A stretch of DNA of 64,000 nt from Calothrix sp. 336/3 (GTDB taxonomy: Bacteria > Cyanobacteriota > Cyanobacteriia > Cyanobacteriales > Nostocaceae). Positions within the stretch are counted from its first letter, which is position 1; every line of letters starts with the position of its first letter. Location: contig NZ_CP011382.1 in the NCBI RefSeq assembly GCF_000734895.2, forward strand, positions 5,310,700 to 5,374,699, given 5' to 3'. This document shows positions 7,402 to 37,038 of this stretch, one piece after another. A model generated the notes under the pieces. It was not told where the DNA came from, searched no databases, and saw only the letters and a list, made by a program, of their open reading frames with translations. The position numbers and the translations under genes are program-made.

Positions 7402-7893
7402 ATGAACAACAACCCTATAATTACTGAAGATATTAATATCCCCACAATATCCCCCGATCGTGAAAAAGTTCCTGAAATATTTACCCGTCATATGGACACT
7501 TGGAAGGGTGAGTATATTAAAACTGACAAACACGGACATTTTTCTCCTAGCTTTGTCGGTACTTTTACGATCTCGATTGAAGGAAATCAGTATCGTCAGG
7601 TGAACAATTATGAATACTCAAATGGCTCTCGTCTGCAACTCAATTTTGAAGGCTACTTTGAAGATAAAATTCTGAAATTGTTTTCTAGCAGTTATGCTGA
7701 TTTTTCTGCGATCGCATGGGATGCGGGTCAGGACATAATTTGCTTTCGTGCAAATAAAACTCAAGATGATGGGCTGATTACATTTATGGAAACAATGACT
7801 TTACTGGATGAAAATCATCGTGTTCGTAGTACACAAGTCTTTAAAGATGGCATTTTTGATGGTATCAGCTTTATAGAGGAAATTCGCTGTTGA
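7402..7893 (+). CDS. Lipocalin-like protein, possibly DUF3598-related
   Basis: A 163-residue cytosolic protein rich in beta-strand sequence. The early FTRHMDTWKGEYIKTDKHG segment, followed by SFVGTFTISIEGNQYRQVNNYEYSNG, resembles the start of the cyanobacterial DUF3598 beta-barrel family, but the protein is shorter than the usual roughly 250 residues. The last strand, FKDGIFDGISFIEEIRC, fits a barrel closing. The gene follows the FAD monooxygenase with 47 bases between them and probably shares its transcript. It might bind that enzyme's small hydrophobic product. The family assignment rests on pattern memory and is only moderately certain. Confidence 0.6.
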   Translation: MNNNPIITEDINIPTISPDREKVPEIFTRHMDTWKGEYIKTDKHGHFSPSFVGTFTISIEGNQYRQVNNYEYSNGSRLQLNFEGYFEDKILKLFSSSYADFSAIAWDAGQDIICFRANKTQDDGLITFMETMTLLDENHRVRSTQVFKDGIFDGISFIEEIRC

Positions 7894-7995
7894 GTCGTCG
7901 AAGCAATGCTTGAATCTGTCGTCAACAAGATAGGTATACTGTCGCCATTAATCTCATTTGTGAGACTTATTAACCAAACGATTCTACTTTAATCA

Positions 7996-8133
7996 GACTT
8001 GTTGCGTAATAAAATTTTAAACGACTGAAAAGCTTACGACATAAGGGTTACGTCCGTCTTTGCTCTTAAATCACTGAACGTCTTGATTCACAAGGGTTTT
8101 AGCCACTTTTTTAACTTAATTCGCAACACGTCT
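7996..8133. repeat. MITE/IS-remnant-like element with 12-base terminal inverted repeats
   Basis: AGACTTGTTGCG (7996-8007) and CGCAACACGTCT (8122-8133) are inverted copies with one mismatch, bounding 138 bases of non-coding sequence. No second copy occurs in the window and no target-site duplication is obvious. The ends look like those of an IS-derived miniature element. Confidence 0.5.
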
Positions 8134-8213
8134 ATTGTTTCTTTTCTCAATTTGGGTTTTGCTCAACCTTTGCAGAATAAGCTTTTTAGCCCCTACCTTA
8201 ACCCGAACTCAGA

Positions 8214-8312
8214 TTACTTAAATAATCGTGAAGATTTAAAAGATATCGCCTCATTGATGATATGAACTGCCCATAAATTGCTGGCAAATGAGACAGAGCT
8301 TGGTGTTGAATA
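8214..8312. repeat. Direct repeat, right copy (remnant of the SbcD-like gene's 3' end)
   Basis: This is a second, non-functional copy of the last 33 codons of the SbcD-like gene at 4757-5995. It keeps the residues YLNNREDLKDIASLM in one frame and then has a changed TGA stop where the functional copy reads on. No nuclease coding sequence precedes it. It marks the right edge of the monooxygenase cassette. Confidence 0.88.
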
Positions 8313-8458
8313 GAAATTTGTGATTGTGACGATAAAATTTATAATAATTCTTTGAGGAATCTGTCAAAATTGCCATATTCATCTCAGATGTATATTCACT
8401 TTATGCCTCTGGCTAGATGAAAAAATAAACTTTTTGATAATTGTCAGGTGGACTCCAT

Positions 8459-10294
8459 ATGTCCTTCTACCCTCAGGTTAAAGAATTCTTGCTTGGTAAA
8501 ACTCTACCAACTAGCGCTCATAGCGAAGAAAGATTAAGTAACGCAGCTGCTTTAGCAGTACTTTCCTCCGATGCCTTATCTTCCGTTGCCTATGCAACTG
8601 AGGAGATTTTGCTAGTTTTAGTGACGGCTGGTAGTGGGGCTTTGGGATTCTCCCTACCAATTGCGGTGGCAATTATAATTTTGCTAGGAATAGTAGTTAT
8701 TTCCTACAGACAAACGATTCGTGCATACCCCAAAGGTGGCGGTTCATACATCGTTGCCAAAGATAATCTGGGACTTTACCCTGGTTTGGTGGCAGGTGGC
8801 TCCCTGATGATTGATTACATTTTAACTGTAACCGTCAGTATTTCTGCCGGAACTGCGGCTTTAACTTCTGCTTTCCCATTCCTGCAAACCCACACAGTCG
8901 GGTTGTGTTTGATTTTTATAGTTTTGCTAACGTTAGCAAACATGCGAGGTGTGAAGGAATCAGGCAATCTTTTCATGATTCCTACCTATGCATTTATTGT
9001 CAGTATTTTTGTGATGATTGCCATTGGTTTATTTAAACAAGCCACAGGTTTTACTCCACCCTCCTATCCAGAAATTCCAGTGAAAGAAGGATTAGGATTA
9101 TTTTTTATTTTGCGGGCTTTTTCTGCGGGATGTACAGCATTAACCGGAGTGGAAGCAATTTCCGATGGGGTACTAGCTTTTAAACAGCCAGAGTGGAAAA
9201 ATGCTCGGTTGACATTGCTCTACCTAGGAGGAATTCTTGGCTTAATGTTTGTGGGAATTACTTATTTAGCCACTTCCTATCACATTGTCCCCGAAGAGGG
9301 GCAGACTGTTGTTTCCTTGTTAGGCAGAACTCTGATTGGGAATAATCCATTTTACTTTTTCATTCAGTTAGTCACACTCCTGGTATTACTATTAGCTGCC
9401 AATACGAGTTTTGCTGATTTTCCCCGACTCTGTTATTTTTTGGCACGGGATGGTTTTCTACCCCGACAGTTAGCCTTATTAGGCGATCGCCTAGTGTATT
9501 CTAACGGGATTATTCTCCTCAGTGTCTCTGCTGCCATTTTGGTAATCATATTCCGAGGTGAAGTCAATGCAATCATCCCTCTATATGCAGTAGGAGTTTT
9601 TACTTCCTTTACCCTTTCCCAAGCAGGAATGGTACGTCACTGGTTTAGAGAAAAAACCACAGGTTGGCGTGCAAGTGCAATCATGAATGGAGTCGGAGCG
9701 ATCGCCACTCTCATTGTTTTAGCTGTAATTGTTTCCACAAAATTTCTTCTTGGTGCTTGGTTAGTGGTAATTGCCATACCTTTGGTAGTAATCCTATTCA
9801 TCACCATTCATCGCCACTATAACTATGTTGCAACACGTTTGAGTATCCAAGGACTATCCCCGCGCAGTTATATTCCCCAGCCAAAACCTGCTGTGATCAC
9901 CCATCCAGCTATAGTACTAGTAGGACAATTGAATCGAGGTACCGTAGACGCTCTCGATTATGCACGCACCATAGCTGATGAGATTGTGGGAGTTCATGTT
10001 GATGTTGGAACTACAGATCGAGAGAAACTCCACGATAAATGGCAACAAATGGAATCAGATATTCCCCTAGTAATTCTTGACTCACCCTACCGCTCTCTAA
10101 TCTCCCCTGTAGTCGAATATGTCAGTCAATTTGAGGAACGCTATCCAGATATATTCACCACAGTAATTATACCCGTTTTTGTGACTCGCAATTGGTGGGA
10201 AAGTATACTCCATAATCAAACAACTCTCTTTCTCAAGACAGCTTTAAGAGCCAAAAAAAGTCGTGTAGTTACGACTGTGAGATATTACTTATAA
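8459..10294 (+). CDS. APC-superfamily permease with cytosolic C-terminal domain
   Basis: A 611-residue inner-membrane transporter of the amino acid/polyamine/organocation superfamily. The ATG at 8459 is chosen because AGGTGG lies 8 bases upstream. About 12 membrane helices fill residues 25-450. The first one or two contain the APC-like SSDALSSVAYATEEIL and YPKGGGSYIVAKDNLG. The last 140 or so residues are soluble, with a strand-helix pattern (AIVLVGQLNRGTVDALDYA) that recalls a universal-stress-like regulatory fold. The substrate is unknown; amino acids or potassium are both possible for this subgroup. Confidence 0.88.
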   Translation: MSFYPQVKEFLLGKTLPTSAHSEERLSNAAALAVLSSDALSSVAYATEEILLVLVTAGSGALGFSLPIAVAIIILLGIVVISYRQTIRAYPKGGGSYIVAKDNLGLYPGLVAGGSLMIDYILTVTVSISAGTAALTSAFPFLQTHTVGLCLIFIVLLTLANMRGVKESGNLFMIPTYAFIVSIFVMIAIGLFKQATGFTPPSYPEIPVKEGLGLFFILRAFSAGCTALTGVEAISDGVLAFKQPEWKNARLTLLYLGGILGLMFVGITYLATSYHIVPEEGQTVVSLLGRTLIGNNPFYFFIQLVTLLVLLLAANTSFADFPRLCYFLARDGFLPRQLALLGDRLVYSNGIILLSVSAAILVIIFRGEVNAIIPLYAVGVFTSFTLSQAGMVRHWFREKTTGWRASAIMNGVGAIATLIVLAVIVSTKFLLGAWLVVIAIPLVVILFITIHRHYNYVATRLSIQGLSPRSYIPQPKPAVITHPAIVLVGQLNRGTVDALDYARTIADEIVGVHVDVGTTDREKLHDKWQQMESDIPLVILDSPYRSLISPVVEYVSQFEERYPDIFTTVIIPVFVTRNWWESILHNQTTLFLKTALRAKKSRVVTTVRYYL

Positions 10295-10455: not shown

Positions 10456-11046
10456 ATGCGTGATACTTTCAATAAAATGATGGGTCGTACCCGTTACGTA
10501 GTTTGCCGTCTATTTATCCATCTCAGTGGTTCCGAAGTTGCCCCCCTCCTGGGTACACTTAACCGTAGTGCCCGTGAAGCAATGGACTCAGAAGGGGACT
10601 TGGAAGTCTTAGGGGAAAATTTGGTCGAAATCTGTCAAACCCTCCTGCAATACGATGATTCCTGGATGTCATCAGCCAATGAAGGTGATGTTTTTTGGAG
10701 TGAGGGTGAAGCAGGGGATTATGTCAGCGAACTATTTACAGATTCTGCCCAAAGATACTTGAGTGAAATTGATGTCAATAACTCTGACTTTAATCAGCCC
10801 CTTTCCTTACCTGTAACTAGTAACATTGTTGTCATGCTCACCGTTGCCTATGAGGGTGAGGCTCCAGATTTAGAAACAGACTTGGCAAATATTAATGCTC
10901 TCAAGCAAGCATTTAAAGCCTTAATTAATTTACACTATCAACATAAACTGCGGGCAATTCAGGTGCATTTTTCACCGGCACAGTTAGGTGATGAACTCAC
11001 CAGCGATCAACTGTTGCAGTATTACCCAGAATTAATTCCTTTGTAA
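10456..11046 (+). CDS. DUF1517 family protein
   Basis: A 196-residue protein without signal peptide or membrane segment. The C-terminal half has the DUF1517 pattern: NIVVMLTVAYEGEAP, a helical LANINALKQAFKALINLH, then LRAIQVHFSPAQLGDELTSDQLLQYYPEL. DUF1517 is widespread in cyanobacteria and in plastids, where some members reach the thylakoid. No biochemical function is known to me. It stands alone between the APC permease and a lipoprotein gene, all on the plus strand with gaps of 130-160 bases. Confidence 0.85.
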   Translation: MRDTFNKMMGRTRYVVCRLFIHLSGSEVAPLLGTLNRSAREAMDSEGDLEVLGENLVEICQTLLQYDDSWMSSANEGDVFWSEGEAGDYVSELFTDSAQRYLSEIDVNNSDFNQPLSLPVTSNIVVMLTVAYEGEAPDLETDLANINALKQAFKALINLHYQHKLRAIQVHFSPAQLGDELTSDQLLQYYPELIPL

Positions 11047-11220
11047 TACCATTGATTTTCTTGATGGTTAGTGAAATCAGTCAGTGGGAATGTTGATGTT
11101 GTGACCATTCTCCCTGGGGAAATTTACCATCAAATTTTCAGTGGTAATGACAAGTAGGGTCGTCCGTACTTATCAGTGACAGGGGAAATTGTTAAGCTCG
11201 GAATAGGACAATGGTTTATT

Positions 11221-12084
11221 ATGCTGATGAAAGTTTTGCGTCAATTTACAGTAGTGGTTTTAGCGCTGAGTTTATGTTTAACTACGGTTGCCTGCGGTGG
11301 AAATTCCGAAAAGAATCAACCACAGGCAAGTAATACTAGTCAAGCTACTAATAGTCCCAGCACTAAACTCAGTGATGGTCAGTATCCAGTACAACAGGCA
11401 AGCTATAACGATGGAGACGGAGAATATACTCTGTTTTTATTGAATAGCACTCCACCGACCTATAAAACTGAAAAGTTACAAATGGCAAGGTTGAGTGATG
11501 CGGAAATCAAGGAAGGTAAGAAAGCTTACTTAAAAGTTGAGAGTGGGCAACCTGTACTCTATTTAACAGAAGATTTCAAAATCGAATACGTCCATAACGT
11601 GACTGAAACGAAGAATAATCCTCAAACTGGACAAAAAGAGGTGGTTGTTGTTCGTCAAGAAAACAGTTTTTGGGCACCCTTTGCGGGGGCGATCGCCGGA
11701 CAAGCAATTGGTAGTTTGTTGTTTACACCTCACTACTATTTCCCTCCCGTATACCAACCAGGTGGTGTATTAAATGGTTACGGTGGCTACGGTAGAACCT
11801 ATGATGTTGCCGTGAATGACTATCGCCAACGGTACAACCAACCACCCGCAGCTGTGAGAAATCGTACAGCCTTCCGAACAACAAGTAATCTCAGAAGGTC
11901 GAACCCTGGGAATAATTCTGCGGTTCGTAATACACCTAACAACGCCAACAACCGTCCTACGGGTTCTGGTTTTGGTAGCAACACCCTGAGACAATCGGGT
12001 AAAACGACCACCACTAGACGTAGTCCTAGCGGGTTTGGTAGTGGACGTTCTGTAAGTCGTCCTAGTTTTGGTCGCCGCAGATAG
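11221..12084 (+). CDS. Lipoprotein with basic, glycine/serine-rich tail
   Basis: About 287 residues from the ATG at 11221; a second ATG at 11227 and an upstream GTG at 11176 are alternatives. The start is a lipoprotein signal peptide ending LTTVAC-GGN, with the cysteine as lipidation site. A polar linker rich in N, S and Q follows. The middle has EVVVVRQENSFWAPFAGAIAGQAIGSLLF, a short hydrophobic glycine-containing segment. The last 80 residues are low-complexity R, N, S, G and T with repeated GFGS motifs (TGSGFGSNTL, SPSGFGSGRS). It is probably anchored in the envelope. I do not recognise a functional family. Confidence 0.75.
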   Translation: MLMKVLRQFTVVVLALSLCLTTVACGGNSEKNQPQASNTSQATNSPSTKLSDGQYPVQQASYNDGDGEYTLFLLNSTPPTYKTEKLQMARLSDAEIKEGKKAYLKVESGQPVLYLTEDFKIEYVHNVTETKNNPQTGQKEVVVVRQENSFWAPFAGAIAGQAIGSLLFTPHYYFPPVYQPGGVLNGYGGYGRTYDVAVNDYRQRYNQPPAAVRNRTAFRTTSNLRRSNPGNNSAVRNTPNNANNRPTGSGFGSNTLRQSGKTTTTRRSPSGFGSGRSVSRPSFGRRR

Positions 12085-12123
12085 ATATGAATGTCGGGAG
12101 AAGGTGGAAGCAATTGGCGATCG

Positions 12124-12636
12124 CTAATTATTTTCCCTTTCCCCTTCCTTTGGCTCCTGAGTTGATTCTTCTCGCTCCGGAGTCAAACTATCAATGGCAT
12201 CACACAGAGCAGTGGTAAGACTTTTACGGGTTTGTAAGTGATTATCCTGTTCTGTTTTTAAAGCTTGTTGTAGGCGATCGCGCTCCTTCGTCAGAGTGAG
12301 CAATTTTGCCTGCAATTCTTCTGTGGAAGTGATTTGACTAATTTGCTGCTGAATCGTTTTATGGCTATCTGCGTCATTGAGTTGGGCTGTTTCCAGACCC
12401 TGTAAACGCTGAATTTCACCCTTCAAAGTGGCGATCGCTTGCTGCGATAATTGGGTATCAGTACGTCTTTGTTCCGCCTCTGTATTATACAATTGCCGCC
12501 ATTTCTGCGCACTCTCCCAGGCATTATCTCGCTCCTTTTGTAATTCTACCAATTGTTGTTTGAGTAATTGAATTTCTGTTAGCCACTGTTGAGTCAAATC
12601 TTGAGACATGGGAATTTCAGAATTGTCGATTTTCAA
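12124..12636 (-). CDS. Coiled-coil protein of unknown function
   Basis: A 170-residue soluble protein that is nearly all predicted coiled coil (about 15-150): long runs of L, Q, E, R and K with heptad spacing, for example QLVELQKERDNAWESAQKWRQ. It has no cysteines of note apart from one in TALCDAID, no signal peptide, and an acidic tail (EREESTQEPKEGEREN). Such proteins are often scaffolds. The start at 12636 could also be the internal ATG in NSEIPMSQDL. It converges on the lipoprotein gene with 39 bases between them. Confidence 0.65.
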   Translation of the reverse strand: MKIDNSEIPMSQDLTQQWLTEIQLLKQQLVELQKERDNAWESAQKWRQLYNTEAEQRRTDTQLSQQAIATLKGEIQRLQGLETAQLNDADSHKTIQQQISQITSTEELQAKLLTLTKERDRLQQALKTEQDNHLQTRKSLTTALCDAIDSLTPEREESTQEPKEGERENN

Positions 12637-26537: not shown

Positions 26538-26957
26538 TTATCTAATTGAGTGATTAATTTCTGCTGCTTGTGCTAATTGACATTGATGGCATAAGCCAAA
26601 AAACTCTAGAGTGTGGTAGAAAACGTTAAATTTGTGCATATCTTGTAATTGCACTTCCAACTCATGAACTGGACATTGATGAATGGGGATGGAAACACCA
26701 CAACGTAGGCAAGTAAGATGATGCTTATCCTGTTGGGTAAGACTGTAGAGAGCTTCACCGTTAGCCAAAGTTCGCATTTGTACCATACCCTCAAGTTTCA
26801 GCGATTCTAAAGAACGGTAAACAGTAGCTAAACCCATGCTTTGGTTGCGATTACGTAATTCTACATAGATATCTTGGGCAGAAATACCTTGTTTCAGGGA
26901 TTTGAGCAGACTGAGAATACGCTCTTGACTGCGGGTGCGTACAGCTTTCATAGACAT
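26538..26957 (-). CDS. zur: Fur-family regulator, Zur (FurB) type
   Basis: A 139-residue zinc-responsive repressor. The winged-helix part has ERILSLLKSLKQGISAQDIYVELRNRNQSMGLATVYRSLE. The dimerisation part has KHHLTCLRCGVSIPIHQCPVHELEVQ, with CxxC, and FGLCHQCQ with the second CxxC for structural zinc. The sequence resembles the cyanobacterial FurB/Zur branch more than FurA or PerR (from memory of that family). It should repress zinc uptake genes when zinc is plentiful. It is divergent from purS with about 185 bases between them. FurA and PerR paralogues remain possible. Confidence 0.8.
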   Translation of the reverse strand: MSMKAVRTRSQERILSLLKSLKQGISAQDIYVELRNRNQSMGLATVYRSLESLKLEGMVQMRTLANGEALYSLTQQDKHHLTCLRCGVSIPIHQCPVHELEVQLQDMHKFNVFYHTLEFFGLCHQCQLAQAAEINHSIR

Positions 26958-30783: not shown

Positions 30784-31501
30784 GAAACATCCATAACTAA
30801 ATCTTCCTAGATACTAACTCATTACGTTTCATCAGCTTGGGTGTCAACATTACACCCCTATATATGTATCAATATTTGCGTGAATTAGTATAGTCTCTAT
30901 CCCATAATCTGTGGGATATTTTTTTGAGTATTGCAACTAAATATTGGCAGTTATACCTCTGGCTTGATTTGCAATAACTGAGTCATACAGTGACACGTTA
31001 ACAGAGGAACCACACGAAAGTCATTGAAAAATCTCCGTTTGACAAGGATTTTAGAACTTTTATTAGTTTCAGAATTTTTGTGAAATGGTGTTTATTTATA
31101 TTTCTTCACATTTATCAAGAGATCCAAGTCAATGGCACCTACGTATACCTGATTGAAATGATGAAGGAGTTTCCAAAAATCGAGCTGCCATCTTGGGAGC
31201 AAGATAGACAATATTGATTCTAAAAATGTTTGTAATCGGATAAACCCGTAGAGACAACCAAATGTCACTACTAAAGTATCCGTCGCATTTTCTCAAATTG
31301 GTATCAACTCTTCAGACTTTGCTAAATGCAAATTTTGAGGGGAGATTTCCCATGGGTATTTGACTTCAACTTTTGAGAATAAACAAAAAGTGAACAGTTT
31401 TTGGTCTGGAAAATGAACAGTTAAATACCCGAAGATATAAAGCCATCCAATCAATTCTCTCTCCAATTCATTACTCAAATTTTAGTCCTAGGAGTAAAAA
31501 A
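30784..31501. other. Intergenic region upstream of the DUF4331 cluster
   Basis: A 718-base gap. Besides the terminator at 30898 it contains no credible gene; frames near 31293-31478 on the minus strand lack family features. The long AT-rich leader before 31502 probably holds the promoter of the DUF4331 gene. Confidence 0.5.
30898..30925 (+). terminator. Intrinsic terminator after the MFS gene
   Basis: TATCCCA (30898-30904) pairs with TGGGATA (30912-30918) around a 7-base loop, followed by a T-run. It lies 115 bases downstream of the transporter stop codon. Confidence 0.75.
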
Positions 31502-32758
31502 ATGGTTGCAAGCAATAGTACAAATCAGAGTCAATTACCGTTAAATTTTCGCACCCGAAAAATCAGAATACTGGCTGGGGTGGCATTTTTAGCTCTCAGT
31601 TTCACAGTCAGTTTAGCTGCGATCGCCCCCAAATATGTGACAGCTTCTGACCATGATGATGGAGAAACCGATACCAAGGGGCGGAATGTCAATTTAACAG
31701 ATTTGTATGTGTTTCGGGAAAAAGACCAAAATCCCTACGCTAGCAAGGATGATTTAGTCTTCGTCATGAATACCAATCCTCGCTCCGTAGCACGTCAGCA
31801 ATATTATTTCAGTACTAACGCTCTCTATGAATTCAAAGTTACCCGTGTAGCTAATCGGGATGGAACTCCTACGGGTAAAGAAGACGTAGTTTTACGGTTT
31901 CAATTCAATCCCCCTAGTTATAACGGTGAGCAGACATTTCAACTTACAGCGATCGCCGATGGGAATAAAAGAACAGCTACAGGTAAAACCACACCTTTAA
32001 GTCCTAATCCCAAAAATTCTCCAACTCTCAACCATCTCAACCTTGGAAAACATAACGTCACAGTGTTTGCAGGATTGCGAGAAGACCCCTTTTTCTTTGA
32101 TGTGGAGCAATATTTCCGGGTGCGTGCAGGTGCATTGGGAATTGGTCCCGCAGTCGGTTTCCGTCCCGCAAACAAAGCTCTGGACTTTGCCACAGGATAC
32201 AATGTCAACGCGATTGTCGTGAAAATTCCGCGCTCTCTCCTTGCAGGGAACAGTAACACCACCACCTTTGACGTGTGGCAAACCATTTCGGTAAAAAACC
32301 CCCAAACAGGGAAATTCCAACAGGTAGAACGTCTTGCTAGACCTGCTATTAACGAAGGTTTAGTAGTGACTAACGATTTTCTCAACGCTTTTAATAGTAT
32401 TCCCCCCACCGCAGACTTAAGCAAAGCAGCAGCACCGGTGGTGGCAGAAGCCAAGAAAACACTGAAGGCAGTTGGTAACGATGATAACCGAGCTAACGCC
32501 CTCTTAAATGCGTTTCTACCAGATGTGATGCGGATAGATACTAATGTACCTAGTGGTTACGGTAAGGCTTTGAATGCTAAAGGCGCTCCTGTGACGGGTA
32601 GATTACTGAAGGATGATGTTATAGATACGACTTTAACGGTGGTCACTAACGGCAAAATTACCACTGATAACGTTTCCTACGAAGGTGCCCCAGGAAACCC
32701 TGCCCAAGGGCATAAACCCTTAGAAAGTCAATTTCCCTACTTAGCTGTACCGAATTAA
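31502..32758 (+). CDS. DUF4331 family protein, exported
   Basis: A 418-residue protein. A signal peptide or anchor lies at about residues 25-45 (ILAGVAFLALSFTVSLAAIAP). The mature part starts SDHDDGETDTKGRNVNLTDLYVFREKDQNP, the hallmark of DUF4331. The acidic SDHxDG...D cluster suggests metal binding, which is inference. DUF4331 proteins are found in many bacteria and have no firm function. It leads a cluster with a TPR protein, a HupE/UreJ-like membrane protein and an SDR, spaced 139, 42 and -4 bases apart. Confidence 0.9.
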   Translation: MVASNSTNQSQLPLNFRTRKIRILAGVAFLALSFTVSLAAIAPKYVTASDHDDGETDTKGRNVNLTDLYVFREKDQNPYASKDDLVFVMNTNPRSVARQQYYFSTNALYEFKVTRVANRDGTPTGKEDVVLRFQFNPPSYNGEQTFQLTAIADGNKRTATGKTTPLSPNPKNSPTLNHLNLGKHNVTVFAGLREDPFFFDVEQYFRVRAGALGIGPAVGFRPANKALDFATGYNVNAIVVKIPRSLLAGNSNTTTFDVWQTISVKNPQTGKFQQVERLARPAINEGLVVTNDFLNAFNSIPPTADLSKAAAPVVAEAKKTLKAVGNDDNRANALLNAFLPDVMRIDTNVPSGYGKALNAKGAPVTGRLLKDDVIDTTLTVVTNGKITTDNVSYEGAPGNPAQGHKPLESQFPYLAVPN

Positions 32759-32831
32759 GAAGTTAGGTAATGGGTGATGGGTAACGCTCTTGCAAGTTCC
32801 TCGAAAAACACTTTTCTCTGCAAACAAACCC

Positions 32832-32890
32832 CTTACTCATTACTCCTTACTCCTCACTCCTCACTCCTTACTTCTTACTCCTCACTCATT
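32832..32890. repeat. Heptamer-like tandem repeat (CTTACTC/CTCACTC)
   Basis: A run of about eight imperfect 7-base units of the form ACTCCTT/ACTCCTC lies just before the TPR-protein start. Read in the wider open frame it gives LTPHSLLLTPHS, which is translation of a repeat and not a protein domain. Confidence 0.75.
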
Positions 32891-32897
32891 TCCGAAT

Positions 32898-34295
32898 ATG
32901 AATCAAGCTTTACCACAGAATAAATCGGTAAAAACCTATTGGTTAGGGGTAGTTTCCATCGCGATCGCTACTACCTTAGGAATTAGTATTTATACTTTTC
33001 TCAATTCTCAACTCACGAAAGTACCTGCACCCTACGGTTATCCCTTCGCTGTTTCTATACCAGGTGGGGGAAATCGCCAAGCAACTCTCCAAAAGGAAAT
33101 TACATTTTATCAAGGAAAAGTACGTCAAAGTCCCGATAGTGGTTTACCCCTGGCGAGTCTGGCTCAAGCATACCTAAAAATGGCAAAAGCCACTGGTGAC
33201 AACAATTGGTACTTATTTGCAGAGCAGTCAGCTCAGCGTTCCCTGGGGAATCTACCTTTTAACAATTCTGGTGCAACGATAGTACTTGCTCGTGTTGCCC
33301 AAGCCAGACATGAATTTACCACCGCCATTCGTCTTGCACAACAGGTATTGCAAGAACAACCCCGTAATGATAGTGCCCTGGCTATTCTAGTCACATCAAA
33401 TCTGGCTATGGGTAATCTCTCCCAGGCAAAAATCGCCGCCGATACACTGGTAAATACGATTCCTACCCAAGGTCACTTTACCCTACAAGCTTTGGTACTG
33501 GCTGCCCAGGGACAGGAAAAAGCCGCAAATGATGCCTTTAAATACGCTTTAGCCGCAGAGGAACCGGGAGACATTAGTAATTCTGCTTCTACGAGAATCT
33601 TTCTCGGTCAATTTTATTACAAACATGGCAAGCTCACCTTAGCAGAGCAGCTTTACCAAGAAGCCCTGCGGATTTCACCTGGAAATCAACTGGCAATGCT
33701 CTATTTAGCTGAACTCAAAACCAGAAAGGGAGATTACCAAGGGGCAGGTAGACTTTATGCTCAAATTTTACCTGATTCCGAACAATCATCTGTTTATGAC
33801 TATGCGGTATTTCGGGGACAAGCCAAGCTACAAAAGTTACAGGGTAATACTCAGGCAGCTAGTCAAATTTTAGACAAAGCTGAAACCCGACTGCGACAGG
33901 AAAATGCTACCGCAAATGGGAATGCTTCCTTTGGACATCGGCGAGATTTAGCACGGTTGTTATTAGAAAAAAATACCCCCACAGCCACCGCAGAAGCCCT
34001 ATTTCTGATGCAAACGGAAATTAATATTCGCCGAGATGCCCAAACCTGGGATACCTTAGCTTGGGCATTTTTACGGTCTGGTGAAGTAAAAAAAGCACAG
34101 TCAGCAATTCAACAAGCTTTAAAAATGGGGACTAGGGATAGTGGCATTTTTTATCGTGGGGCGATGATTGAGCAAGCTTTGGGGAATCAATCCCAAGCAA
34201 CAACTTATCAGAAATTAGCCCAGGAAGTAGACCCAACTTTTGATGAGCAAGCACGACGGACATCAGATATGGGATTAGATAGTTTGGGATTCTAG
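32898..34295 (+). CDS. TPR-repeat protein, membrane-anchored
   Basis: About 465 residues from the ATG at 32898. An earlier frame start at 32790 runs through the heptamer repeat and is less likely. Residues 14-36 (YWLGVVSIAIATTLGISIYTF) form a signal anchor. The rest is a string of helical TPR-like repeats (for example LTLAEQLYQEALRISPGNQLAMLYLAELKTRKGDYQGAGRLYAQIL), probably 7 or 8. TPR proteins hold partners together, and here the likely place is the periplasmic face of the membrane beside the DUF4331 and HupE-like proteins. The partner is unknown. Confidence 0.85.
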   Translation: MNQALPQNKSVKTYWLGVVSIAIATTLGISIYTFLNSQLTKVPAPYGYPFAVSIPGGGNRQATLQKEITFYQGKVRQSPDSGLPLASLAQAYLKMAKATGDNNWYLFAEQSAQRSLGNLPFNNSGATIVLARVAQARHEFTTAIRLAQQVLQEQPRNDSALAILVTSNLAMGNLSQAKIAADTLVNTIPTQGHFTLQALVLAAQGQEKAANDAFKYALAAEEPGDISNSASTRIFLGQFYYKHGKLTLAEQLYQEALRISPGNQLAMLYLAELKTRKGDYQGAGRLYAQILPDSEQSSVYDYAVFRGQAKLQKLQGNTQAASQILDKAETRLRQENATANGNASFGHRRDLARLLLEKNTPTATAEALFLMQTEINIRRDAQTWDTLAWAFLRSGEVKKAQSAIQQALKMGTRDSGIFYRGAMIEQALGNQSQATTYQKLAQEVDPTFDEQARRTSDMGLDSLGF

Positions 34296-34337
34296 TAATT
34301 TTTTTATTCTTGATTAATCTTACAATTAGCAAATAAT

Positions 34338-35438
34338 ATGAAACTCAAAATACGTCAGTTCTGGTTATTTATTTTCTCTTGCTTTTTAGTATTATTATCT
34401 TCTGTGGTTTTTCACTCTCCCACCCTTGCCCACTGGGCAGATTTAGCAGTGGCAGAAATTACTGTGAATCCGACTAAAACCCAGATGGTAATAACTTTTC
34501 CTACAGATTTAGTCAGTTTTGCAGATGATAATCGAGATGGACAACTGTCATCCCAGGAAGTAACTAATCATAAAGGAGAATTAGAAAAGTTCATCGGGGA
34601 AAAAATTCGCCTACAAAATGAAACTTCTACCGATGGTTCCTTAGTTGTCGCGTTTTCCCGCAGTTTGCCCAAGAATCTCCAAAATAATGTTAATACCCAC
34701 ACTACCCTAGAGTTAACTTATAATTGGTCGCAACCTGTAACAGAATTGTATCTCAATTATGATTTATTTCTGCCCAATGTTTCAACTGCTCGTTGTTTAG
34801 CAACTGTCACCCAGGGGGGAGAAACTCAAAATTTGGTATTGAGTCCTGAAAAGAAAGAATTTGCTTTAATTAAAGGTTCTGTATGGCAGCAAATAGGTAG
34901 CTTTATTTTACTGGGAATTGAGCATATTCTCTCTGGCTATGACCATGTTTTATTTTTAGTTAGCTTGTTGATGCTGGGGGGAGGTTTAGGTTATCTCCTG
35001 AAAGTAGTCACAGCTTTTACCATTTCCCATTCTGTAACTTTATCTTTAGCAGTCTTAAATATTGTCACTCTTCCCAGTCAGTTTGTTGAGAGCGCGATCG
35101 CCCTCAGTATAGTTTACGTTGCTGGGGAAAACTTCTGGCGTAAAGATATCAAAGGACGCTGGATACTGACTTTTATTTTTGGACTCGTCCATGGATTGGG
35201 TTTTGCTGGTATCCTCAAGGAAACCCATCTTTCCCAAGGAAATTTAGCTCTATCCCTGGCTAGTTTTAATATTGGTGTGGAAATTGGACAAATTATCATC
35301 GTTTGTTTGGCATTTGCTATCCTCCATACCCTACGCAAATATCCTTGGGAGTTAAATTTACGCCGTGTTTTATCTGCCGGTGTGGTTGCTATTGGGTTAT
35401 TTTGGTTTGTACAACGAGCTTTTGGATTATTTGCATGA
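34338..35438 (+). CDS. HupE/UreJ-like membrane protein with an EF-hand in its exported domain
   Basis: A 366-residue protein. Residues 1-31 form a signal peptide ending LAHWAD. Residues 32-180 are an exported beta-rich domain containing a complete 12-residue EF-hand loop: Asp63, Asn65, Asp67, Gly68, Leu70, Glu74 at positions 1, 3, 5, 6, 8, 12. The membrane part (about 185-365, six or seven helices) contains GIEHILSGYDHVLFL and GLVHGLGFAG, with histidines and aspartate typical of HupE/UreJ, a family linked to metal (nickel/cobalt) transport. The EF-hand suggests calcium sensing, which is inference. The SDR start overlaps its stop by 4 bases. Confidence 0.9.
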   Translation: MKLKIRQFWLFIFSCFLVLLSSVVFHSPTLAHWADLAVAEITVNPTKTQMVITFPTDLVSFADDNRDGQLSSQEVTNHKGELEKFIGEKIRLQNETSTDGSLVVAFSRSLPKNLQNNVNTHTTLELTYNWSQPVTELYLNYDLFLPNVSTARCLATVTQGGETQNLVLSPEKKEFALIKGSVWQQIGSFILLGIEHILSGYDHVLFLVSLLMLGGGLGYLLKVVTAFTISHSVTLSLAVLNIVTLPSQFVESAIALSIVYVAGENFWRKDIKGRWILTFIFGLVHGLGFAGILKETHLSQGNLALSLASFNIGVEIGQIIIVCLAFAILHTLRKYPWELNLRRVLSAGVVAIGLFWFVQRAFGLFA

Positions 35439-36187
35439 TTTCTGGTAACGGGTTAATTCTGGGTGCAAGTCAAGGTATCGGTTTGAGTCTGGTAAAGCAG
35501 CTACTTGCAGAATCTCAAGTAAATCGAGTCTACGCAACTTACTGTCACCCCGAATCCGCTACAGAGCTTTTTTCCCTGCAAGCAACCTATCCAGACAAGT
35601 TATTCTGCCACCAACTAGATATTACAGAAGAATCGCAAATCGTCGATTTTGTCAAGTTTTTACAGCAAGATATTCAGCAACTCCACCTAGGAATTAACTG
35701 TGTGGGGTTTTTACATGATGCCATCCAACAACCAGAAAAAAGCCTGAAACAGATAAACTCTGATAATTTACTCCGCTATTTCCAAATCAATAGTATTGGT
35801 GCAGTCTTACTGGCAAAACATTTATTACCTTTGTGGAAACATGGCGATCGCAGTGTTTTTGTCAGTATTTCTGCCAAGGTCGGCAGTATTGGAGATAACC
35901 ATCTCGGTGGTTGGTATGGCTATCGCGCTTCCAAAGCAGCGTTGAATATGTTCATGCGCACTGTAGCCATTGAGTACGCTAGGGTATCCCCCCGCACAAT
36001 TGTTATTACCTATCACCCTGGAACTACTGACACCCGTCTTTCCCGTCCCTTCCAAAAGAACGTCCCCCCAGAAAAATTGTTTTCCCCAGAGCGGACTGCA
36101 TCTCAATTATTGCAACTAATTACCAAGCTAGAAATGCCAGATAGTGGACAGTTTTTCTCCTGGGACTCTAGTAAATTGCCTTGGTAG
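35435..36187 (+). CDS. Short-chain dehydrogenase/reductase
   Basis: A 250-residue NAD(P)-dependent oxidoreductase. I chose the ATG at 35435, which overlaps the HupE-like stop by 4 bases (ATGA), a sign of translational coupling. The dinucleotide-binding start is GLILGASQGIGLSL, with an NCVGFLHD segment replacing the usual NNAG. The catalytic Tyr163 and Lys167 lie in GYRASKAALNM, after the active-site serine (SISAK). The substrate is unknown. Its tight link to an integral membrane protein is unusual for an SDR. Confidence 0.9.
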   Translation: MISGNGLILGASQGIGLSLVKQLLAESQVNRVYATYCHPESATELFSLQATYPDKLFCHQLDITEESQIVDFVKFLQQDIQQLHLGINCVGFLHDAIQQPEKSLKQINSDNLLRYFQINSIGAVLLAKHLLPLWKHGDRSVFVSISAKVGSIGDNHLGGWYGYRASKAALNMFMRTVAIEYARVSPRTIVITYHPGTTDTRLSRPFQKNVPPEKLFSPERTASQLLQLITKLEMPDSGQFFSWDSSKLPW

Positions 36188-36453: not shown

Positions 36454-37038
36454 ATGTCTCAACCAGGGCAACTGTCACAGGATTTGAAAATAGACAACCC
36501 CCAAGCAAGACAAGATGCAGAGCGAATGCGTGACGTACTGCTCTTGGTGGAAAATTTAACTACTAGAGAAGAGACAAATATTAAGCTGATTATCGACTGT
36601 CTATATGATGTCGGCGCACCACATTTAATCCAGAAAAAATTCCGTTCCACCACCTTGCAAAAAGTTCTACAGATAACAGCGAAAATGTCGAAACCCGCAT
36701 TTCGTATTTTTGCTTGGCGTTGGTTGCAGAAAAATTTACCAGGATTAATTACTAACTGGCTACATCAACAGGTTAAATTTCAAAATATAACCCAAGTAAC
36801 TACAACAGTAGTAGAAGTTAACCCCACAGCAATAGAGACAAGGGAAGAAAAAGAAAACATTCCTTTATCAACTCAAATCAAAGTCTTGAGAGGTTCATTA
36901 ATTTGTGTAACTGCTGTACTCGGTAGCAGTTTACTATGGTTGAGCTATGACTTGACTCTGACGCGATCGCAACTACAAAGTCTGCAACAATCACAGATAC
37001 AGACTGTACACAAATCAATGGTTAACGCCCATCGGTAA
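36454..37038 (+). CDS. Conserved protein with a C-terminal membrane segment
   Basis: A 194-residue protein. The N-terminal 110 residues are helical and charged (RQDAERMRDVLLLVENLTTREETNIKLIID, then GAPHLIQKKFR). The segment ALQKVL...AFRIFAWRWLQKNLPGLITNWL is amphipathic. A hydrophobic helix at about 148-170 (LICVTAVLGSSLLWLSYDLTL) is likely a membrane anchor, with a short tail. I do not recognise the family. It converges on the small minus-strand genes at 37046 with only 7 bases between, so neither side has room for a terminator. Confidence 0.65.
   Translation: MSQPGQLSQDLKIDNPQARQDAERMRDVLLLVENLTTREETNIKLIIDCLYDVGAPHLIQKKFRSTTLQKVLQITAKMSKPAFRIFAWRWLQKNLPGLITNWLHQQVKFQNITQVTTTVVEVNPTAIETREEKENIPLSTQIKVLRGSLICVTAVLGSSLLWLSYDLTLTRSQLQSLQQSQIQTVHKSMVNAHR

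Follow-up and report, generated by a model that had tools for sequence, protein, structure and literature searches.

A recurrent DUF4331-TPR-permease gene set in cyanobacteria and other bacteria with a predicted role in envelope transition-metal handling

The gene cluster of Calothrix sp. 336/3

The analyzed window is a 64,000-nucleotide stretch of the 6.42 Mb genome of the cyanobacterium Calothrix sp. 336/3, and all positions are counted from its first letter. The open reading frames and their Pfam matches confirm the four-gene, forward-strand cluster described in the initial annotation: genes for a DUF4331 protein (31502..32758), a TPR protein (32898..34295), a HupE/UreJ-like permease (34338..35438) and an SDR (35435..36187), the last two overlapping by the four bases ATGA (35435-35438). 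The DUF4331 and HupE_UreJ_2 domains each occur in a single copy in the genome, both in this cluster. A terminator-like hairpin with a T-run (30898-30926) is located in the gap that separates the MFS gene upstream from the cluster; shuffled sequences are equally rich in such matches. A Fur-family-regulator-like protein is encoded on the reverse strand approximately 4.5 kb upstream (26538-26957).

The first protein (418 aa) shows a full-length match to PF14224 (profile positions 1-421; 224.7 bits against a cut-off of 27; E = 3.3e-66) and is predicted to be exported via a signal peptide spanning residues 1-48 (31502..31645), which ends in Val-Thr-Ala; the hydrophobic stretch and the Ala at position -1 are conserved across its relatives. 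The second gene was listed with a TTG start at 32790; however, that start precedes, and its frame reads through, the cyanobacterial CTCACTC/CTTACTC heptad repeats situated between the first two genes (32830-32890), and the ATG at 32898 is therefore preferred. The resulting protein of 465 aa has an N-terminal hydrophobic segment followed by TPR repeats (TPR_19, 6.9e-15, along with other TPR models). The permease (366 aa) combines a predicted signal peptide, an exported domain and a C-terminal membrane domain that matches PF13795, HupE_UreJ_2 (4.8e-45; residues 189-334; 34902..35339).

The fourth protein, an SDR (adh_short, 8.1e-26), had been counted as part of the set, a proposal that does not survive comparison across genomes. 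Homologs with 65-70% identity are encoded by 12 of the 15 sampled members of the host family, all but one of these 12 lacking DUF4331, and in two such module-less relatives (L174, L175) the SDR gene is followed by the homolog of the next Calothrix gene (36454-37038). Moreover, clustering of the genes neighboring DUF4331 recovered no recurrent SDR. Its genomic distribution thus marks it as belonging to the core gene complement of the host lineage, and its overlap with the permease gene is a local feature.

Conservation and phyletic distribution of the module

DUF4331 shows a patchy distribution: PF14224 is found in 29 of the 148 genomes of the host's order, and sampling one genome per genus from 15 other members of the family yielded only two distant copies. 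Where it occurs in cyanobacteria, a TPR gene follows directly on the same strand in 26 of 28 loci, and the order DUF4331-TPR-permease is retained in 22 of the 26 loci whose flank reaches 4.5 kb or more, the permease mostly adjoining the pair on its downstream side. The presence of DUF4331 is likewise strongly correlated with that of the permease, with a strong HupE_UreJ_2 or NicO match in 27 of the 29 genomes with DUF4331 as against 20 of the 119 without it (Fisher p ~1e-14, computed over 148 genomes of one order, whose species are phylogenetically non-independent).

Beyond the cyanobacteria, scanning a single genome of each species recovered 80 further DUF4331 loci, distributed across Actinomycetota, Chloroflexota, Acidobacteriota, Bacteroidota, Verrucomicrobiota, Planctomycetota, Myxococcota and Proteobacteria. 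The association is looser here: where enough flank was available, a TPR gene is present in 44 of 68 loci and a permease in 24 of 59, so that the TPR gene is missing from about a third and a recognized permease from more than half. Neighbor clustering over the loci found only two gene families recurring at a set place behind DUF4331, the TPR genes in 61 loci and the permeases in 50; a further cluster of opposite-strand frames from 56 loci was discarded as an artefact of reading frames in GC-rich DNA. The order of the module is retained across genera and phyla at protein identities of just 25-30%. Comparable arrangements are also seen in plasmid records, namely DUF4331-class F sortase-TPR-"nickel transporter" in a Streptomycetaceae plasmid, DUF4331-TPR-"nickel transporter" in Streptomyces (the transporter names being those of the annotation), DUF4331-hypothetical-HupE/UreJ in Croceicoccus and DUF4331-HupE/UreJ in Rhizobium. 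DUF4331, TPR and permease hence form a recurrent three-gene module. The initial annotation had proposed an undescribed, metal-related envelope set that includes an exported DUF4331 protein, a TPR protein anchored in the membrane and a permease of the HupE/UreJ type, and had named a failure of the pairings to recur elsewhere as a refuting outcome; their presence in cyanobacteria and other phyla, with conserved order across loci, does not refute this part of the proposal and supports it.

Several loci display variant architectures. The two cyanobacterial exceptions without a TPR gene (L059, L060) encode a divergent DUF4331 subfamily starting with SDHQDSP (7866-9110 and 7899-9080 of the respective loci); these also lack the permease and are instead accompanied by a GMC-oxidoreductase-like and a cation-diffusion-transporter-like gene. 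In six cyanobacterial loci (L055-L058 and two more) a secreted protein of about 200 aa is encoded between DUF4331 and TPR. Tandem DUF4331 genes are observed in seven loci (L041, L045, L113, L115, L119, L121, L146), and in some of these every copy has a TPR gene to itself. In the Streptomycetaceae plasmid (L064), where the class F sortase gene (8881-9624) is inserted between DUF4331 and TPR, the DUF4331 protein ends in a hydrophobic C-terminal tail suggestive of cell-wall anchoring. The Croceicoccus locus (L066) has DUF4331 split into two frames and genes for an ECF-type sigma factor and an anti-sigma factor directly after the module (10909-12259).

DUF4331 proteins display a predicted metal-binding N-terminus

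Cleavage at the predicted site would leave the Calothrix DUF4331 protein with the mature N-terminus Ser49-Asp50-His51 (31646..31654). A free amino terminus with His as the third residue, NH2-X-X-His, constitutes an ATCUN site for Cu or Ni. Among 122 recognized DUF4331 N-termini, which were picked by a motif search, making the third-position His true by construction, Ser/Ala-X-His comes right after Ala in 102, Gly in seven, Met in 11, and Thr and Ser in one each, while the second residue is Ser, Asp, His or Asn but never Pro. The nine remaining DUF4331 frames comprise one with the motif (L048), seven that are fragmentary, split or cut by the sequence edge, and a single copy without it (the first of L077). 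The His is also invariant in two untrimmed alignments (A1 and A2).

Ten of the 11 Met-preceded proteins have no signal peptide and start with Met-Ser-X-His; in five loci (L108, L112, L114, L131, L063) the open frame extends only 1-6 codons ahead of the start Met. The initiator Met is normally removed when Ser is the next residue, and the His would accordingly become third by both routes, signal cleavage and Met removal. The predicted free N-terminus thus lies two residues before the His, whether generated behind an Ala or Gly at -1 or by loss of an initiator Met before Ser, and this spacing is conserved in both exported and signal-less forms. With His at position 3 and a residue other than Pro at position 2, the predicted mature N-terminus has ATCUN geometry in nearly every intact member of the family. 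Signal-less proteins starting with MSSHREAP (L108, L109, L110, L112, L114, L131, L090), mostly from the Actinoplanes group, occur without TPR or permease and are predicted to constitute a cytosolic branch of the family.

Other invariant positions of DUF4331 are D19, Y61, R145, D147, N250, G318 and R319. An AF2 model of the mature chain is strand-rich (pLDDT 89.2, pTM 0.91; an earlier model was weak at pLDDT 71.6) and has its lowest confidence over the first ten residues, which fits an exposed N-terminus, though it is no proof of one. Foldseek searches of PDB recovered no match at E <= 0.001, and VIA-align retrieved domains of a generic Ig type, the best with Z 6.3 and an rmsd of 3.2 across 122 residues, which may merely indicate a common arrangement. 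Sequence-profile searches against PDB returned nothing beyond helical proteins of designed origin and weak matches to S17, which were taken as compositional. We found no mention of DUF4331, PF14224 or the SSHREAP motif in the open-licence literature searched.

The permease: a shared exported domain with an exchangeable membrane half

The third gene of the cyanobacterial loci codes for a HupE_UreJ_2 membrane domain in six and for a NicO domain in 16 of 26 cases. Searches initiated with the Calothrix exported domain nevertheless recover its counterparts in NicO-type proteins at E values from 1e-35 to 1e-53, just as strongly as those in the HupE types; the exported domain is thus common to both, and the membrane half has been exchanged between two nickel/cobalt-transport families. 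The two versions differ in their His content within 40 residues, with 6-28 in the NicO types, which have a His-rich loop, as opposed to 3-5 in the HupE types.

By rule-based assignment of the signal-peptide sites, the exported domain begins with His in 55 of 60 third-gene candidates, with Ala or Ser occupying position -1 and A, S or V predominating at -3. In Calothrix, the corresponding His1 (precursor residue 32; 34431..34433) comes right behind the predicted site Thr-Leu-Ala. Further downstream, mature residues 32-43 (34524..34559), DDNRDGQLSSQE, match the EF-hand pattern D-x-[DNS]-x-[DNS]-G-x-hydrophobic-x3-E. A looser version of this pattern is found in 39 of 55 relatives, compared to 0.9% of shuffled domains, and in all but one it lies at a family-specific position (32, 35-36 or 42-44). 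Invariance across an alignment of 11 diverse exported domains (A5) is confined to His1, Asp32 and Glu43, and a profile built from this alignment and searched against PDB matches the EF-hand loops of calcium-binding proteins. The calcium-dependent transport suggested in the initial annotation gains some support from this EF-hand-type loop in the exported domain, a candidate Ca2+ site.

Comparison with known systems

The closest parallel is furnished by the anglerases, in which His1 domains that bind Cu and Ni are borne on HupE/UreJ_2 permeases (PMC12537917). They share with the Calothrix permease the succession of signal peptide, exported His1 domain and HupE/UreJ_2 membrane domain, and a second ligand has been reported near residues 33-41 (PMC12537917), the region in which the Calothrix loop is located. 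However, the Calothrix exported domain, compared by sequence only, has no match to the structurally solved Ang-1 chain (9GCE) in phmmer or profile searches, and the anglerase study makes no mention of DUF4331, TPR, NicO, EF-hand/calcium or cyanobacteria (PMC12537917). Similarly, the membrane domains fall into the families of the HupE/UreJ (PF13795) and NicO (RcnA-type; PF03824) permeases, including the His-rich loop of the NicO types, but differ from them in having an exported His1 domain fused in front and DUF4331 and TPR encoded upstream. The CopC-CopD copper uptake pair likewise combines a His1-bearing exported protein with a membrane permease, to which it is sometimes fused. The presence of His1 in CopC has been noted (PMC12537917), but the proteins described here give no CopC or CopD Pfam match up to E = 0.1. 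DUF4331 itself is comparable to ATCUN proteins such as serum albumin (PMC7701195) in the predicted third position of its His in the mature chain and the lack of Pro at residue 2, but belongs to an unrelated bacterial family in which the metal site is predicted. The layout of a His1 domain on a HupE/UreJ_2 permease is known; what appears to be undescribed is its partnership with DUF4331 and TPR proteins, the version with a NicO domain, the loop of EF-hand type and the N-terminal motif of DUF4331.

Mechanistic interpretation

These observations lead to the proposal, to which we assign a probability of roughly 0.55, that the three proteins constitute an envelope transition-metal module, in which a periplasmic relay feeds a Ni/Co-type permease. 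The exported DUF4331 protein is predicted to pick up ions of the Cu(II)/Ni(II) type at its mature N-terminal Ser-X-His, and the membrane-anchored TPR protein would contact and tether it close to the permease. The exported domain of the latter would then take over the metal at His1, beside the EF-hand-type loop, which might either coordinate Ca2+ or contribute carboxylate ligands, and pass it on to the HupE/UreJ_2 membrane domain, or in relatives to the NicO domain with its His-rich loop, for transport.

The most likely form of that transport would be import of Ni or Co, which is favored because of the families involved (PMC4284471). The client is probably not primarily hydrogenase: NiFe hydrogenase is rarer in genomes with DUF4331 than in those without it (6/29 versus 71/119 across the 148 genomes of the order; p = 2e-4), a deficit that may be an effect of phylogeny. 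These counts contradict a role of the module in hydrogenase supply, and urease is uninformative as a client, being near universal in the genomes. A search upstream of the module for metal riboswitches or shared, conserved operators found none.

The identity of the metal is the first point at which other readings have to be weighed. Copper is a serious alternative because both types of N-terminal site prefer it, ATCUN sites in particular favoring Cu(II) over Ni(II) by orders of magnitude (PMC7701195). The module might then capture copper, detoxify it or hand it to cuproproteins, with the HupE/NicO-type domain moving Cu, and the negative association with NiFe hydrogenase would be in keeping with this; but both versions of the membrane domain are of Ni/Co families, and the genes neighboring the module include no recurrent CopC, CopD or other copper gene, leaving copper handling the less probable choice. 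The direction of transport poses a related problem. The NicO family includes exporters such as RcnA, so that the membrane domain could instead expel Ni or Co, with DUF4331 buffering the exported metal outside; the His-rich loops of the NicO versions and a patchy distribution befitting a tolerance trait speak for such an efflux role, which we nonetheless regard as unlikely, given that the HupE/UreJ proteins studied are importers (PMC4284471; PMC12537917) and that no metal-resistance genes recur beside the module.

A more fundamental objection is that the Ser-X-His of DUF4331 could be a structural element or part of an inner site and not a free ATCUN, in which case the protein might be an enzyme or adhesin with an indirect link to the permease. 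The additional invariant residues are compatible with this, as are the low model confidence over the first ten residues and the occurrence of signal-less Actinoplanes-group members without TPR or permease. Yet the His keeps an exact spacing from the predicted free N-terminus whether the protein is exported or lacks a signal peptide, and this, together with the repeated linkage to Ni/Co-family permeases, makes such a reading rather doubtful. That the genes are chance neighbors devoid of a common function, as indeed holds for the SDR, is highly improbable for DUF4331, TPR and permease, being contradicted by the order kept across phyla at such low identity and by the co-occurrence within one order.

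Under the preferred reading of a relay feeding a Ni/Co-type permease, DUF4331, a widespread family with no function in the literature searched, gains a first testable role via its N-terminus and permease partner. A bolder and correspondingly tentative extension is that DUF4331 represents a new, widespread class of ATCUN-type metal carriers, both exported and cytosolic, which, jointly with a tethering TPR protein and with His1/EF-hand permeases whose HupE and NicO membrane halves are interchangeable, might form an undescribed and possibly calcium-gated metal relay across the envelope in many bacterial phyla. The module also carries the anglerase idea of 2025 over to permeases with NicO domains and into the cyanobacteria, Chloroflexota, Acidobacteriota and Verrucomicrobiota, besides suggesting that permeases of the anglerase type may operate with a carrier protein and a tether.
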